A stretch of 64,000 bases of DNA from an uncultured SAR116 cluster alpha proteobacterium (GTDB lineage: Bacteria > Pseudomonadota > Alphaproteobacteria > Puniceispirillales > Marisalimonadaceae), in contig CABYED010000001.1 of NCBI GenBank assembly GCA_902517815.1, positions 298,169 to 362,168 on the forward strand, in the 5' to 3' direction. This document shows positions 32,702 to 40,069 of this stretch, in pieces (within the stretch, counting starts at the first letter, position 1; every line of letters begins with the position of its first letter). The position numbers and the translations under genes were made by a program. The notes under the pieces were generated by a model that searched no databases, was not told where the DNA came from, and worked only from the letters and a program-made list of their open reading frames with translations.

Positions 32702-32983
32702 CTAATCAGTTACGTCCATTACATTTGACATCTCTTTTATGTCATTATGAAACATGCCTGCCATATCACCTAAGGTGTCTAGAATAGCTTGAGGAGAGTT
32801 CGCTTTCCACCAACAATACATAACCATATCATTCTTTTCATTATTCCAATTCATTTGAAAATTTGCATTTTCATTTTTCATATTTTTACGCACATCATCT
32901 GGCGTCATGTCTTTCATTGCTTCAAAATACTGATCTCTTATTTCTTCAGACTTGAATTTATGTTCTACCATATAATCTTTCAT
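32702..32983 (-). CDS. Small ferredoxin-fold-like protein, unknown (93 aa)
   Basis: Unknown. The sequence FEAMKDMTPDDVRKNM followed by MVMYCWWKANSPQAILDTL resembles DUF4242-like small dimeric proteins, where an aromatic strand is followed by A-x-S-P-x-A-I. It is Met-rich (about 13 of 93 residues), which can be a sign of copper or other soft-metal handling, and it lies divergently from the copper-type operon at 33.2 kb. That link is only positional. The ribosome-binding site is a plausible GGAGAT. Confidence 0.55.
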   Translation of the reverse strand: MKDYMVEHKFKSEEIRDQYFEAMKDMTPDDVRKNMKNENANFQMNWNNEKNDMVMYCWWKANSPQAILDTLGDMAGMFHNDIKEMSNVMDVTD

Positions 32984-33157
32984 TTATTATCTCCTAAAAT
33001 TTATATATTATTATGATTAATTTTTTATAACATCAAATTCTTATTTTAATAAAATTAATTAACTATTCTATTTTAATAGTATTTAAAATATTTAATTAAG
33101 TAACTAATTAATAGTTAAATGTTACATTATAATTAAAATTTTTTAATTTTTTTCTTT

Positions 33158-33178
33158 ACCTTCCTCTTAGGGAAAGGT
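33158..33178 (+). promoter_or_regulatory. CueR/HmrR-type copper operator
   Basis: ACCTTCC-7 bases-GAAAGGT, almost identical to the CueR operator of E. coli copA (ACCTTCC-7-GGAAGGT); one base differs in the right arm. A TTTACC sits just upstream like a -35 box, and a TTTAAG or TAAGCA after the site is a possible -10, with a long (about 19-base) spacer as MerR-family promoters have. It precedes the DUF4396-cytochrome c-multicopper oxidase operon by about 24 bases. Confidence 0.78.
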
Positions 33179-33201
33179 TTAAGCACTTAATTGGAGATAA
33201 A

Positions 33202-33645
33202 ATGTTTATTCAAGATGTAATACATATAAACTGGTTCTGCCAACATACTTGGTTACAGTCATCTAAAAATACTTTGTGGTGTTTACTTGGATGTTGTATT
33301 GGAGATTTTGGTACAATTGCATATTTTCAATTCATGCAGATTGACTGGCCCGTTATATTAATCATGTCACTGGCCATTGTTAATGGAATATTGACATCTA
33401 TTGCACTTGAAACTTTTATTCTGTCAAAGCAAATGTCTATGAAATTAGCCTTTAAAACAGCGATTGGGATGTCTTTAGTTTCTATGGTTTCTATGGAATT
33501 AGCTATGAATTTAACTGATGTTGCACTTACTGGTGGTGCTATTTTAACATGGTGGGTTATTCCTTTTATGCTTATCGCAGGATTTGTAACACCCCTACCA
33601 TACAATTATTGGCGATTAAAAGCTTTAGGCAAAGCATGTCATTAA
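33202..33645 (+). CDS. DUF4396 membrane protein
   Basis: A 147-aa membrane protein of the DUF4396 family. Seen: TWLQSSKNTLWCLLGCCIGDFG near the N-terminus (the family has W-x-x-A-S-x-N-T-x-x-C-L-x-G-C-x-I-G), and the very conserved end ILTWWVIPFMLIAGFVTPLPYNYWRLK. Four helices are likely. The Cys pair and Met-rich helix 3 region (MSMKLAFKTAIGMSLVSMVSMELAM) suggest copper or other soft-metal contact. It is the first gene after a CueR-like operator and is followed by cytochrome c and multicopper oxidase, so a role in copper tolerance is inferred. It overlaps the cytochrome gene by 10 bases. Confidence 0.85.
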   Translation: MFIQDVIHINWFCQHTWLQSSKNTLWCLLGCCIGDFGTIAYFQFMQIDWPVILIMSLAIVNGILTSIALETFILSKQMSMKLAFKTAIGMSLVSMVSMELAMNLTDVALTGGAILTWWVIPFMLIAGFVTPLPYNYWRLKALGKACH

Positions 33646-34136
33646 ATTTTAAAATTTTTGTTAAAAATAAATATTTATTCCTAATAATTGTTCCTTCAAT
33701 AATTTTAATTTTAGGAATGGTTATCTACTTGGCTGAAGAAAAAGTTGCTGAAGCAGCTATAACTTTAAATCCTGATAATAAAGAAACTATATTATTAGGT
33801 AAATCTGTATATGTTCAAAATTGTGCATCATGCCATGGTGTAAAATTAGAAGGTCAAAAAGATTGGATGTCCAGACTTCCAGATGGATTAATGCCTGCTC
33901 CTCCTCATGACGAGACAGGTCACACCTGGCATCATAGTGATAAATATTTATTCATGATTACTAAATACGGTATTGAGTATATTATAGGTCAAAAATATCC
34001 TAACAATATGCCAGCTTATAAAGATATTCTCTCAGATAAAGAAATTATATCAGTATTATCTTACATAAAAAGTACTTGGCCAAAAAAAGTTAAAAAAATC
34101 CACGATCAAATCAATGATCGCGAGAAATTAAAGTAA
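33636..34136 (+). CDS. Membrane-anchored c-type cytochrome (monohaem)
   Basis: A 166-aa protein with one N-terminal anchor helix (YLFLIIVPSIILILGMVIYLA) and a class I haem-binding motif CASCHG near residue 60. The distal Met ligand is probably in YPNNMPAYKDILSDKE near the C-terminus, the usual place. The ORF track extends the frame 29 codons upstream into the DUF4396 gene; the ATG at 33636 is chosen because it follows the upstream stop region closely and begins a normal N-terminus. It could pass electrons to or from the multicopper oxidase. Confidence 0.87.
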   Translation: MSLNFKIFVKNKYLFLIIVPSIILILGMVIYLAEEKVAEAAITLNPDNKETILLGKSVYVQNCASCHGVKLEGQKDWMSRLPDGLMPAPPHDETGHTWHHSDKYLFMITKYGIEYIIGQKYPNNMPAYKDILSDKEIISVLSYIKSTWPKKVKKIHDQINDREKLK

Positions 34137-34165: not shown

Positions 34166-35551
34166 ATGCTATCTCGACGTCAATTTTTAAATTTTTCAGC
34201 AGCTACAATTGCTCTAACATCTTTACCTAATCAAATTCAATCTAACCAATTAATCCGTAATTATAAGCTAACAGCCGAAATTACCCCACATTCATTCGAT
34301 AAGAAAGGTGTCTTGGATAGTTTATGGTTGTATAACAAACAAACACCTGGGCCAGTCATTGAGGCAAAAGAAAATGATATCATAAGAGTTGAGTTTGTTA
34401 ACAATTTAGATGAAGCCACTACGATCCACTGGCATGGTATAAAAAATATTAATAAGATGGACGGTGTTCCATATTTAACTCAGAACCCAGTTCAGCCTGG
34501 AGAAACTTATATATATAAATTTCCAGTTAATAATGCAGGGACATTTTGGTACCACTCACACTTTGAAACTTGGAAACAAATTTCAAAAGGTTTATATGGA
34601 CCTCTGATAGTCAAAAATCATTTAGATAAACAATTTGATAATGATATCATTATATTAGCAGATGATTGGAGATTGAATAAAAATTATCAATTAGATAAAA
34701 ATTCATTAGGCTCACTTCATGATTGGTCACATGCAGGGAGAATTGGAAATTGGCTTACTATTAATGGAAAAAAATTTCCTGAATACTCTGTAAATAAAAA
34801 TGGCTATGCAAGATTAAGATTTATTAATGCCTCTAATGCAAGGATACTTTCATTTGGCTCCAGTTTAAATGGGATGAAGATCATCTCAATAGATGGGATG
34901 TCGGTTGAACCATTCATTCAAGACAAATTTAATTTGGGGCCAGGACAAAGAATTGATTTGTTAATAAAAACTGTTGACATGTCAACAATTGATTTCTTTG
35001 AAGTCAGTGGTAAAAAACCTTTAAGTGCTTTCAAGCTAAATGTTAATCAAAGAAGTAAAAAAAATATTCTAAAGAAAAACATAAAACTACAACCTTTTAA
35101 AAAAACACCACAGTATAAAAATTCAAAAATATTAAAAATTCATATGCAAGGCGGTGCAATGGGAAATCTTGCTAGAGCCTATTTTGAAGGTGTAGAAAAA
35201 AATTTTCGTTTATTAGCAATGGAAGATAAAAAATTCTGGGCATTTAATAAAGAGGTAGGTAAGTATGAACATTCACTAGCAAGTGTGAAAAAAGGCGAGA
35301 TAATAATTTTAGATGTTTGGAATGACTCAAGATGGCCACATAGTATGCATCTGCATGGTAATCATTTCTATGTTGAATCAAAAGAATTTTCCGACGATGA
35401 TAAACTAATTCTCAGAGATACATATCTAATGCAACCAGGTGAAAAATCAAAATTTATATATTTAGCAGATAATCCTGGTAAATGGCTTTTTCATTGTCAT
35501 ATGTTAGAACATGCAGCTTCTGGTATGATAGGTTATATAGAAGTTATATAA
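34166..35551 (+). CDS. Multicopper oxidase (CueO/CopA-like), Tat-exported
   Basis: A three-cupredoxin-domain laccase-type oxidase (461 aa) that oxidises Cu(I) or organics with O2. Seen: Tat-type signal SRRQFLNFSAATIALTSL, the trinuclear-site motifs TTIHWHGI, FWYHSHFE, SMHLHGNHF and the type 1 site HCHMLEHAASGM, so all copper ligands are present. Met-rich loops seen in CueO are short here. It closes the operon with DUF4396 and cytochrome c, and the CueR-like operator points to copper detoxification. Confidence 0.93.
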   Translation: MLSRRQFLNFSAATIALTSLPNQIQSNQLIRNYKLTAEITPHSFDKKGVLDSLWLYNKQTPGPVIEAKENDIIRVEFVNNLDEATTIHWHGIKNINKMDGVPYLTQNPVQPGETYIYKFPVNNAGTFWYHSHFETWKQISKGLYGPLIVKNHLDKQFDNDIIILADDWRLNKNYQLDKNSLGSLHDWSHAGRIGNWLTINGKKFPEYSVNKNGYARLRFINASNARILSFGSSLNGMKIISIDGMSVEPFIQDKFNLGPGQRIDLLIKTVDMSTIDFFEVSGKKPLSAFKLNVNQRSKKNILKKNIKLQPFKKTPQYKNSKILKIHMQGGAMGNLARAYFEGVEKNFRLLAMEDKKFWAFNKEVGKYEHSLASVKKGEIIILDVWNDSRWPHSMHLHGNHFYVESKEFSDDDKLILRDTYLMQPGEKSKFIYLADNPGKWLFHCHMLEHAASGMIGYIEVI

Positions 35552-36618: not shown

Positions 36619-36737
36619 TATAACTTCTCCAACAATAAATTAGTCAAACAAAAACAATTTCAACTAAACATAAAAAAGTTTAAAAAAGAAAACTATAATC
36701 ATTTTGAAAAATAAAATTAAATTTGTATAATTTAAAG

Positions 36738-38915
36738 ATGAATGCTTTTTACATTTTATTCACATTTTCTTTTCTTTTGATATATGATAATGCTTTATTA
36801 AGAAAAGCTTATGCAAAAACCACTTTCAAAGGTGGAATAATAGTGCAAAGTAAATCATTACCAACTAAAATACCAATCAAAAGAAAAGACCTTATTTATG
36901 ATTTAAAAAAATTTGATGATAGTCATCTTAATCAAGTCATAACTACAAATGAAGCAATCAGATTAGAAAGAAGAGTTGGTATTGGTGTTCCAATTGATAG
37001 AATTAAATTACATATTGGCAAAACAAGAAGAGAAGCTATAAATGATATCATATCCGATTTAGATAAATATCAAGAAAACATTATCTGGCCAAAGTGGACT
37101 TCAGTTTCAATTCCAACAAGCTTTATGGATAGAGGCATTAAAAATCATCGTATAAACTGTGATGAACAATCATTTCTGTTGTCTCTCAAAACAACGTGGA
37201 TGGAAAAACTTGTATCCAGTAAAACCCCACAATACGAAAGACTAGCTATTTTTTGGCTTAACCATTTTTCTGTAAATTTTAATATGTATAAACAAACACA
37301 TTCTTTTTTCACTCATTTAAAGATAATTAGAGAAAATACTAACAAAAATTTTTTAAAATTTCTTGAAATCATTTTAAAAGATCCCGCGATGATAGTGTAT
37401 TTGAACAATGAAAAAAGTTATGCTCGAAATCCTAATGAAAATTTATCAAGAGAATTTTTTGAATTATTTAGTTTAGGTGAAGGGTATTATTCTGAAGCTG
37501 ATATAAAAAATTTTGCAAGACACTTATCAGGAAATTCAATCAATTTTGTTACTGAAAAATTTAAAATATATCCAAACAAACAGTCATCACATGAATATTC
37601 TGCTTTTGGAAAAAAATACAAAAACGATGAAGAGTTTTTTGAAATTTTAAAAAATCATCCAGCTTTTGGTGAATACATTGCATTAAAATTTTATAAAGAA
37701 TATGTGGATTTAAGAAAACCATCCTCTGAGGATCTTGCATACCTTGTTTCTTATTTTAGAGAACATAATTTCAATATACCAGAAATGCTTCGAGGTGTTT
37801 TAAATCTTAAAAGTTTTTGGGAAAATAAACTCTCACTCGTTAAATCACCACTTGAATTATTTTATGGAACAGCAAGAACTTTTAATCACTCTGGCAACCC
37901 AAATTCTAAAGAACCAAACCATTATAATTTATTAAGTGCAATGATAGAAACGGGACAAGATATTTTTAATCCCCCAAATATTGCCGGTTGGCCAACTGGA
38001 AAGGAATGGTTGTCTGGACAAAAACTGGAAAAAAGAATTACAAGTATTTCAGAAACTTTTTCCAATATTTTTAATAATTCGAATAAAATGCAAAATAAAA
38101 GTTTAATAGCGAAGACCCCTGAACAAACCTACAATATTAAATTAAAACAATTTTTTGATCAAAGTCTAGACAACCAACTTAGTGTTGAAACTATTTTATT
38201 AGACTGGATACCAAAAGATTTTTCTACTAGAAGATATGCTGACATAACGGCTTTTTTTTATAACGTTAGATTTTTAGGAAAGAAATGGGAAGGTATTGAA
38301 ATCAGATTTGGAACTGATAAAAATAATGGGAAATCCTATCAAGAATTAAATAGATTTAGTTTTTATGAGGGATATAGCTCACCTAACATAATATCTAACT
38401 GGAATAAAAGTTATTTCTCTGATTGGAGGGCGACAAGAGGTATATCTAGTTCTTTTCCTTTAGGGACTAAAACAACAAGATTTTATCAACAAAATAAAAC
38501 AACTAGACTACTTCTGCTTCATCTTCTTCTTGCTATGGAACATACTCTAAAAAAAGATCAATATTATATGCGTTTATTCACCAACCCTGATGCTAAGTCT
38601 TTTTTAACCCAAAGAATAGTTGAAGTAAAAAAAATTTTAAAAATTAATGACAATTCTAATCCTACTAGAATTTTTTCTTACCCTTCATATATGACAAATT
38701 ATGAGGATATGGGATTTCAGTGTGGTACAAGAAGATATGGTATCAATATAAATAACATAACAGAAAGTAACTACTTCCGCAATAATTATGATTTAAAAAA
38801 TATAGATGAAATGAAAATAAATTTATCAAACTTATTATTACCTGATCTAAACCTTAATATTGATAATTTTAACTATTTGAAACTGTTAACTCACGAAGGA
38901 TATCAATTAAAATGA
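36738..38915 (+). CDS. DUF1800 family protein, exported
   Basis: A 725-aa secreted protein of DUF1800. The start at the second Met of the ORF track gives a signal peptide (MNAFYILFTFSFLLIYDNALL). Hallmarks: RLERRVGIGVPIDRI, then W-x-NHF motif RLAIFWLNHFSVNF, NLSREFFELFSLGEGYYSEADIKNFARHLSG and FNPPNIAGWPTGKEWLSG. These match the family, which is of unknown function and nearly always pairs with DUF1501. The gene overlaps the next by 4 bases (ATGA). The inserted Lys- and Asn-rich regions make it longer than typical (about 450-600 aa). Confidence 0.88.
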   Translation: MNAFYILFTFSFLLIYDNALLRKAYAKTTFKGGIIVQSKSLPTKIPIKRKDLIYDLKKFDDSHLNQVITTNEAIRLERRVGIGVPIDRIKLHIGKTRREAINDIISDLDKYQENIIWPKWTSVSIPTSFMDRGIKNHRINCDEQSFLLSLKTTWMEKLVSSKTPQYERLAIFWLNHFSVNFNMYKQTHSFFTHLKIIRENTNKNFLKFLEIILKDPAMIVYLNNEKSYARNPNENLSREFFELFSLGEGYYSEADIKNFARHLSGNSINFVTEKFKIYPNKQSSHEYSAFGKKYKNDEEFFEILKNHPAFGEYIALKFYKEYVDLRKPSSEDLAYLVSYFREHNFNIPEMLRGVLNLKSFWENKLSLVKSPLELFYGTARTFNHSGNPNSKEPNHYNLLSAMIETGQDIFNPPNIAGWPTGKEWLSGQKLEKRITSISETFSNIFNNSNKMQNKSLIAKTPEQTYNIKLKQFFDQSLDNQLSVETILLDWIPKDFSTRRYADITAFFYNVRFLGKKWEGIEIRFGTDKNNGKSYQELNRFSFYEGYSSPNIISNWNKSYFSDWRATRGISSSFPLGTKTTRFYQQNKTTRLLLLHLLLAMEHTLKKDQYYMRLFTNPDAKSFLTQRIVEVKKILKINDNSNPTRIFSYPSYMTNYEDMGFQCGTRRYGININNITESNYFRNNYDLKNIDEMKINLSNLLLPDLNLNIDNFNYLKLLTHEGYQLK

Positions 38916-40069
38916 TAAATAGTAGAAGAGAATTTTTATCTTTAGCTGCACATACTTTTTTGTTTTCCTCATTTCCTACTTTAGCTAAATCAAAAATAAA
39001 TCAAAAAATTTTAATTTTAGTTGAACTTCAAGGTGCAAATGATGGGCTTAACACAGTAATTCCATTAAATCAGGATTATTATTACCGTTTAAGACCAACA
39101 ATTGGAATAGAAAAAAATAGAATACTTAATATTTCAAACAATAATGGTTTACACTACAGATTAAAAAATATTGCTAAATATTATGAAAATGGAAATGTTA
39201 AGATTATTCAAAATTTAGGTTATCCACATGCGGTATTATCTCATTTTAGATCAATTGATATTTGGGAAACAGGAGGAGATGGGAAAAAACAATTTAGAAA
39301 TGGTTGGCTTGTAGATTTTTTGAATACGTATAGTAAAAAATTGGATGTTGATGCAAAAGGAATGTTTTTAGACAATTCCAACTCTATTTTTAGAGGTGGT
39401 CTAGAGGGTTTTCTAGGTCCGAATTCTATTGGTTTAGCACCTGAAGAAATTGAAGTAAGAGACACAATTGTACCTGTTGATGATAGAAAAAACTTTGGTT
39501 TATTAAATGAAATTTTAAATAAAAGAACACAAAACTCAAATTTGTTAAAAAAATTAATTTCTAAATTTAGTAAGGTAAAAAATAGATATTCATTTGGTGG
39601 TGGACAATTAGGTTCACAATTATCTAATGTTTGCAACCTAATAGCTTCAGGTATATATATTCCAGTCTACAAAGTAGCATTAGGAAGCTTTGATACGCAC
39701 AATAATCAACAAAATACTCATAGTAGATTATTAAGAGATTTAGATAAATCTCTTGGGTCTACCGTTAATGCGCTAAAAGAGATTGGTGTTTGGAATGACA
39801 TTCTAATAATGACATATTCTGAATTTGGTAGAAGAGCAAATGAAAATGGATCCAGGGGCACTGATCATGGTATGGCAGCACCTCATTTTGTATTAGGCGG
39901 TAACGTTAGTGGCGGTATAATTGGAGAATATAATGATTTGAGTAAATTGTGGAATAATAATATCAATTATAAAATAGATTACAGATCACTATATGAATTT
40001 GTCTTAAGAAATCACTTTGACATAACTAATAATCCTTTTTCTAAATTTAAAAATTCAAATATTATATGA
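38912..40069 (+). CDS. DUF1501 family protein, Tat-exported
   Basis: A 385-aa protein of the DUF1501 family, alkaline-phosphatase-like fold, partner of DUF1800. Seen: Tat signal SRREFLSLAAHTFLF, VELQGANDGLNTVIPL, SHFRSIDIWETGG, LGSFDTHNNQQNTHSRLL and the C-terminal MTYSEFGRRANENGSRGTDHG metal motif. The pair is common in marine bacteria; proposed roles include external phosphatase or sulfatase-like activity, but none is proven. It is cotranslated with the upstream gene and followed by the first tRNA-repeat. Confidence 0.9.
   Translation: MINSRREFLSLAAHTFLFSSFPTLAKSKINQKILILVELQGANDGLNTVIPLNQDYYYRLRPTIGIEKNRILNISNNNGLHYRLKNIAKYYENGNVKIIQNLGYPHAVLSHFRSIDIWETGGDGKKQFRNGWLVDFLNTYSKKLDVDAKGMFLDNSNSIFRGGLEGFLGPNSIGLAPEEIEVRDTIVPVDDRKNFGLLNEILNKRTQNSNLLKKLISKFSKVKNRYSFGGGQLGSQLSNVCNLIASGIYIPVYKVALGSFDTHNNQQNTHSRLLRDLDKSLGSTVNALKEIGVWNDILIMTYSEFGRRANENGSRGTDHGMAAPHFVLGGNVSGGIIGEYNDLSKLWNNNINYKIDYRSLYEFVLRNHFDITNNPFSKFKNSNII

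Follow-up and report, generated by a model that had tools for sequence, protein, structure and literature searches.

The copper regulator CueR and its regulon are known, and what is new here is a variant of that system, together with a predicted function for the orphan family DUF4396. The Cue system of Escherichia coli (CueR, copA, and cueO) shares with the SAR116 locus its regulator family, its operator, its type of promoter (19 bp between the boxes), and a multicopper oxidase (MCO) among the targets; it differs in that neither CopA nor any other P-type ATPase was found in SAR116, where DUF4396 and a cytochrome c head the operon and where copC-copD also bears a site. In rhizobia, HmrR, the alphaproteobacterial orthologue of CueR, uses the same operator, and a 19-bp spacing of the −35 and −10 boxes is the geometry of CueR and HmrR promoters (PMC1526738). 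The rhizobial target, however, is the P-type ATPase ActP, with hmrR usually second in the operon, whereas the SAR116 host encodes cueR elsewhere in its genome and in relatives the gene lies divergent from DUF4396. Cytochromes under CueR-type sites have likewise been predicted in Vibrio (PMC1526738), in a paper that does not mention DUF4396; the SAR116 cytochrome differs in being encoded by the second gene of an operon. The copper importers CcoA and CalT have in common with DUF4396 an MxxxM motif in a transmembrane helix, which within their family predicts copper transport (PMC6362234), but they are importers of the MFS type for which no relation to DUF4396 in sequence or fold was found, and the likeness is an analogy of motif only. 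The open-access literature that we searched contained one mention of DUF4396, without a role, and nothing relevant on this family, on SAR116 copper genes, or on CueR without CopA.

The features of the locus are listed below by their positions in the window, that is, the whole stretch of 64,000 nucleotides that was analysed.

33155 to 33160, + strand: −35 box TTTACC, which shares bases with the left half-site of the operator, with a 19-bp spacer to the −10 box; TT-AC kept in 59 distinct upstream segments
33158 to 33178, + strand: CueR-type operator ACCTTCC-TCTTAGG-GAAAGGT, supported by reading of the sequence, by shuffle counts, and by its presence in relatives
33180 to 33185, + strand: −10 box TAAGCA, of which TA is kept in relatives
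33193 to 33196, + strand: ribosome-binding site GGAG, read from the sequence
33202 to 33645, + strand: DUF4396 membrane protein, 147 aa, four helices (PF14342, 121.8 bits; structural model; conservation)
33636 to 34136, + strand: membrane-anchored mono-haem cytochrome c, 166 aa, with CASCH as its CxxCH motif (PF00034, PF13442)
34166 to 35551, + strand: MCO, 461 aa, with a twin-arginine-type N-terminus (PF07732, PF00394, PF07731; ligand motifs)
32702 to 32983, − strand: divergent Met-rich open reading frame of 93 aa with 12 Met (weak SCO4226-like match)
36723 to 40069, + strand: two adjacent open reading frames of 730 and 385 aa, resembling a DUF1800/DUF1501 pair

Operator, promoter, and operon

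The sequence ACCTTCCTCTTAGGGAAAGGT is located at positions 33158 to 33178, where an earlier note, made from the sequence alone, had described it as a near-perfect and rightly placed CueR operator (ACCTTCC-7-GAAAGGT); this claim held with respect to coordinates, shuffled sequences, and the 19-bp promoter. The palindrome lies between the boxes of a MerR-type promoter (TTTACC-N19-TAAGCA) in front of the DUF4396-cytochrome c-MCO operon, and directly 3' of the promoter are the ribosome-binding site and then the start of DUF4396. It is the single site in the window with at most 1 mismatch to the E. coli operator ACCTTCC-N7-GGAAGGT (0.01 expected from dinucleotide shuffles), and the combination of operator and promoter boxes (TTKACC..GGTTTA) is also unique in the window (0.01 expected). 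With an ACCTTCC-N7-GGAAGGT-like palindrome inside a 19-bp promoter spacer as the sequence criterion for membership of the CueR regulon, the operon qualifies. Control of the operon by CueR is very likely on the sequence evidence; copper-dependent binding and activation are inferred, the activation from the known behaviour of MerR-family regulators.

The claim of an operon of DUF4396, cytochrome c, and MCO genes in which the oxidase has all of its copper ligands was also borne out. DUF4396 matched PF14342 well above the gathering threshold (E 4e-35; 121.8 versus 27 bits), and the cytochrome c gene starts at 33636 and thus overlaps the DUF4396 stop. The MCO has three cupredoxin domains with a full set of four copper-ligand motifs (HWH, HSH, HxxHxH, and HCHxxxHxxxGM), the criterion used for a copper-resistance multicopper oxidase (CueO/CopA oxidase). 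It failed the NCBIfam cut-offs for CueO (136 versus 525 bits) and for copper_res_A (180 versus 479 bits), and "CopA-oxidase/CueO-like" is to be read with that reservation. Its N-terminus matched a Tat profile at a score under the Pfam cut-off, and its nearest solved structure was the laccase 4f7k.

One part of the earlier note failed, namely, the prediction of a copper function for the divergent Met-rich 93-aa protein. Its start is 175 bp away from the operator, a 19-bp promoter is absent on its strand (TAAACC-19-AAGAAA), and its position is occupied by cueR in sister lineages; it was rejected as a co-target, and its regulation by CueR through this site is unlikely. Of the 9 nearest named loci, 7 have this open reading frame; its best Pfam match, SCO4226-like, missed the gathering threshold (25.0 versus 28.5 bits).

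Regulator, P-type ATPases, and conservation of the locus

The copper reading would have been refuted by a genome without a CueR or HmrR homologue or by a palindrome not conserved upstream of orthologous operons; neither was the case. As had been claimed, no such gene is encoded in the window, and none of the three MerR-domain proteins of the host genome is. CueR was found elsewhere, on contig 29: the protein matched TIGR02044 best, scored above the cut-off of this equivalog model (150.7 versus 147.4 bits), aligned over its full length to E. coli CueR structures, and has the metal loop CHGDDRPNC, which meets the C-x7-C criterion for the Cu(I) loop of CueR. The other two MerR-domain proteins have no CueR-like metal-binding end. 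Among the 58 family genomes, many of which are incomplete, 30 had a CueR match above the cut-off, and C-x7-C was kept in all CueR homologues (36/36) found around a wider set of DUF4396 loci.

P-type ATPases (PF00122) were not detected above the cut-off in the host genome or in any family genome (0/58), while all controls (14/14) were positive, and therefore no CopA was found either; a Cue system with CopA, defined by a Cu(I) P-type ATPase in genome and regulon, is not seen here. The completeness of the host genome is 89%, and the search covered P-type ATPases but not copper pumps of the RND type. Within these limits, the SAR116 lineage appears to lack CopA. In a sample of 192 alphaproteobacterial genomes, for which 90% completeness was asked and which included the host genome, a Cu-ATPase was absent from 13 of 14 genomes with window-type DUF4396 and from 50 of 178 others (Fisher P = 2e-6), and a worst-case count restricted to genomes of at least 2 Mb gave a P value of 0.003. 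DUF4396 was present in 4 of 6 genomes with CueR but without a Cu-ATPase versus 5 of 64 with both (P = 0.002). None of these three P values was corrected for relatedness. In the small genomes G347 and G507 (1.2 Mb), Cu-ATPase and CueR matches were both absent.

The named proteins nearest to the window DUF4396 came from SAR116 genomes (90 to 98% identity), as fits a window from a SAR116-cluster alphaproteobacterium. Upstream of family DUF4396 genes the operator was present at 28 of 30 loci, and the two loci without it (L006 and L007) carry more divergent copies (64 to 65% identity). In the 59 distinct upstream segments, conservation was seen in TT-AC of the −35 box, in each half-site, and in TA of the −10 box, as well as in a C directly 5' of the −35 box and in part of the palindrome centre, the remaining columns being information-poor; half-sites paired at 5.1 of 7 positions, compared to 1.2 to 3.2 when slid. 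In the sister genus, cueR and DUF4396 point away from each other on either side of the palindrome. The wider set comprised 80 DUF4396 loci, mostly proteobacterial, of which 76 had enough flank, and cueR was the divergent neighbour in 33 of these 76. Promoter and palindrome together were found at all window-like loci (9/9), at 30 of 32 testable cueR-divergent loci, and at 8 of 34 other loci (0.016 expected per region). Since 26 of the 34 loci without adjacent cueR lack such a promoter, control by CueR is not universal in the DUF4396 family. A comparison of neighbourhoods, as the earlier note had proposed, showed by clustering that cytochrome c (28 loci), MCO (19), CopD (17), and CopC (14) recur most often after cueR, with cytochrome c the commonest downstream neighbour. 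The association is thus broad, often includes cueR itself, and occurs in a lineage without detectable CopA.

Window-type DUF4396 was also seen without cueR nearby at L149, L150, L151, L162, and L187 (Pelagibacteraceae and other small-genome relatives). In another alphaproteobacterium, a 468-aa open frame (L164:1492-2895, − strand) fuses cytochrome c and DUF4396 domains, the latter of another DUF4396 subfamily. Annotated plasmid contexts were limited to three distant Streptomyces DUF4396 genes, and the two inspected had no metal genes nearby.

Possible roles of DUF4396

Operator and promoter, regulator gene, conservation, the company of copper genes, and the absence of P-type ATPases from the genomes examined are shown by sequence; the role of DUF4396 is inferred. 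A part in copper defence is very likely, on sequence evidence and without experiment, because a CueR operator precedes a DUF4396-led operon in a bacterium apparently without a copper-pumping ATPase, and the prediction of a copper function from the site is to that extent supported. Further support for this reading comes from the recurrence of the cueR/DUF4396 divergon, from the cytochrome c, CopC, CopD, and MCO neighbours, and from the lack of P-type ATPases. Control by CueR and a copper role of DUF4396, taken jointly, are likely.

An AlphaFold model from 58 sequences (pLDDT 86.9) has helices at residues 14 to 44, 51 to 75, 80 to 110, and 120 to 141, and both termini may lie inside, as inferred from positive charges near residues 76 to 85 and at the C-terminus. 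Invariant residues include C27, C31, D35, M90, M95, M98, E99, M102, D106, C146, and H147; they contribute a CxxxC motif (C27, C31), MxxxM, and a row of Met (M90, M95, M98, and M102), and the window type has the signature WCxxGCxIGDxGT. Enrichment of Met and Cys among the invariant residues was not significant and is not independent evidence. Searches for solved-fold relatives by Foldseek, by sequence profile, and by Pfam cross-matches gave nothing significant and no relative of known function. Copper might travel from C13, H15, C146, and H147 by way of CxxxC to the Met row, a path that is inferred only.

In the mechanism that we propose, CueR, encoded elsewhere in the genome, would occupy the palindrome between boxes 19 bp apart, and Cu(I)-bound CueR would re-align these boxes so that RNA polymerase transcribes DUF4396, cytochrome c, and MCO. 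The three products probably act in concert: DUF4396 would take excess Cu(I) into the membrane and hand it on towards the periplasm, where the MCO would oxidise Cu(I) to Cu(II) and cytochrome c would carry electrons. DUF4396 would then do the usual job of CopA, a place assigned to it because the lineage has no detectable P-type ATPase. That it translocates Cu(I), rather than binding or delivering it, is inferred, and we put this at somewhat less than even odds; an exporter lacking an energy source would need another driving force. A bolder reading, which is no more than possible, is that window-type DUF4396 represents a so far unrecognised class of Cu(I) exporters that in abundant marine bacteria has taken the place of CopA as principal target of CueR. 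In that case a protein of four helices with CxxxC and MxxxM would export cytosolic Cu(I) without ATP, pulled by the conversion of Cu(I) to Cu(II) through the co-expressed oxidase and cytochrome.

Two other roles for DUF4396 remain possible. It may be a membrane partner of cytochrome c, the two jointly moving electrons that come from Cu(I) oxidation in the periplasm or go to the MCO, so that the operon would serve Cu(I) oxidation in the periplasm alone. The start-stop overlap with the cytochrome gene, the frequency of cytochrome c as downstream neighbour, the single open frame in the other subfamily, and the cytochromes predicted in Vibrio CueR regulons (PMC1526738) speak for such a partnership. 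However, several cueR-adjacent DUF4396 loci have no neighbouring cytochrome c detected, invariant intramembrane Cys and Met fit Cu(I) better than electron transfer, and CueR senses cytosolic copper while no other regulon member found would act in the cytosol. Alternatively, DUF4396 may be a membrane store or chaperone that supplies Cu(I) to the MCO, to CopC/CopD, or to respiratory oxidases without net export, in agreement with its Cys, Met, and His conservation, its small size, and the frequency of CopC and CopD nearby; cytosolic Cu(I) would then be left without an exit in a cell lacking P-type ATPases, unless pump types not covered provide one.

That the palindrome arose by chance or is the site of another MerR-family regulator is very unlikely. 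MerR-family operators are alike, and the genome encodes two further MerR-domain proteins. These proteins lack the metal-binding end of CueR, however, and the site is conserved in relatives, in which adjacent regulators have C-x7-C. Operator copies elsewhere mark CopC, CopD, and CusF genes. Both origins were rejected on the shuffle expectation of 0.01, the best match of the host protein to TIGR02044, and C-x7-C. The preferred reading, a copper role under CueR, gives a Pfam family of unknown function a testable role, and the copper response of SAR116 and comparable marine lineages, in which no P-type ATPase was detected, bears on how cytosolic Cu(I) is cleared. If DUF4396 does clear it, the protein would add a new type to the membrane proteins that handle copper.

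Other copies of the operator

Genome-wide claims for the host rest on pattern and profile searches. The genome scan for the palindrome, also proposed in the earlier note, gave one near-exact operator, and the upstream regions of copC-copD and cueR added two degenerate sites. The copC-copD site, ACTCTCC-TCTTAGA-AGAAGGT, lies within TTTACT-N19-TATAGA. The host cueR (L004, − strand) has ACTCTAC-TTTTAGT-GGAAGGT approximately 12 bp before its ATG, without promoter boxes, which may reflect autorepression or be a relic of the cueR/DUF4396 divergon. Across the family, the operator pattern matched in 24 of 58 genomes, with few matches in a reversed control. Sites in L242 and L258 precede CopC-CopD operons and a site at L074:10039 precedes a CopC-CusF gene, as confirmed with Pfam; for the L239 site, no clear target was found on reading the surroundings.

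In L074, from a SAR116 relative, a further CueR-type operator (L074:9579-9599, with TTTACC-N19-TAGTCT) precedes a gene for a membrane adenylate/guanylate cyclase (PF00211; L074:8358-9545, − strand); next to it is the CopC-CusF gene, which is preceded by a separate operator. A comparable site was found at L079:9577-9597, and similar ones were found in G036, G037, and G039; the L074 cyclase may be copper responsive.
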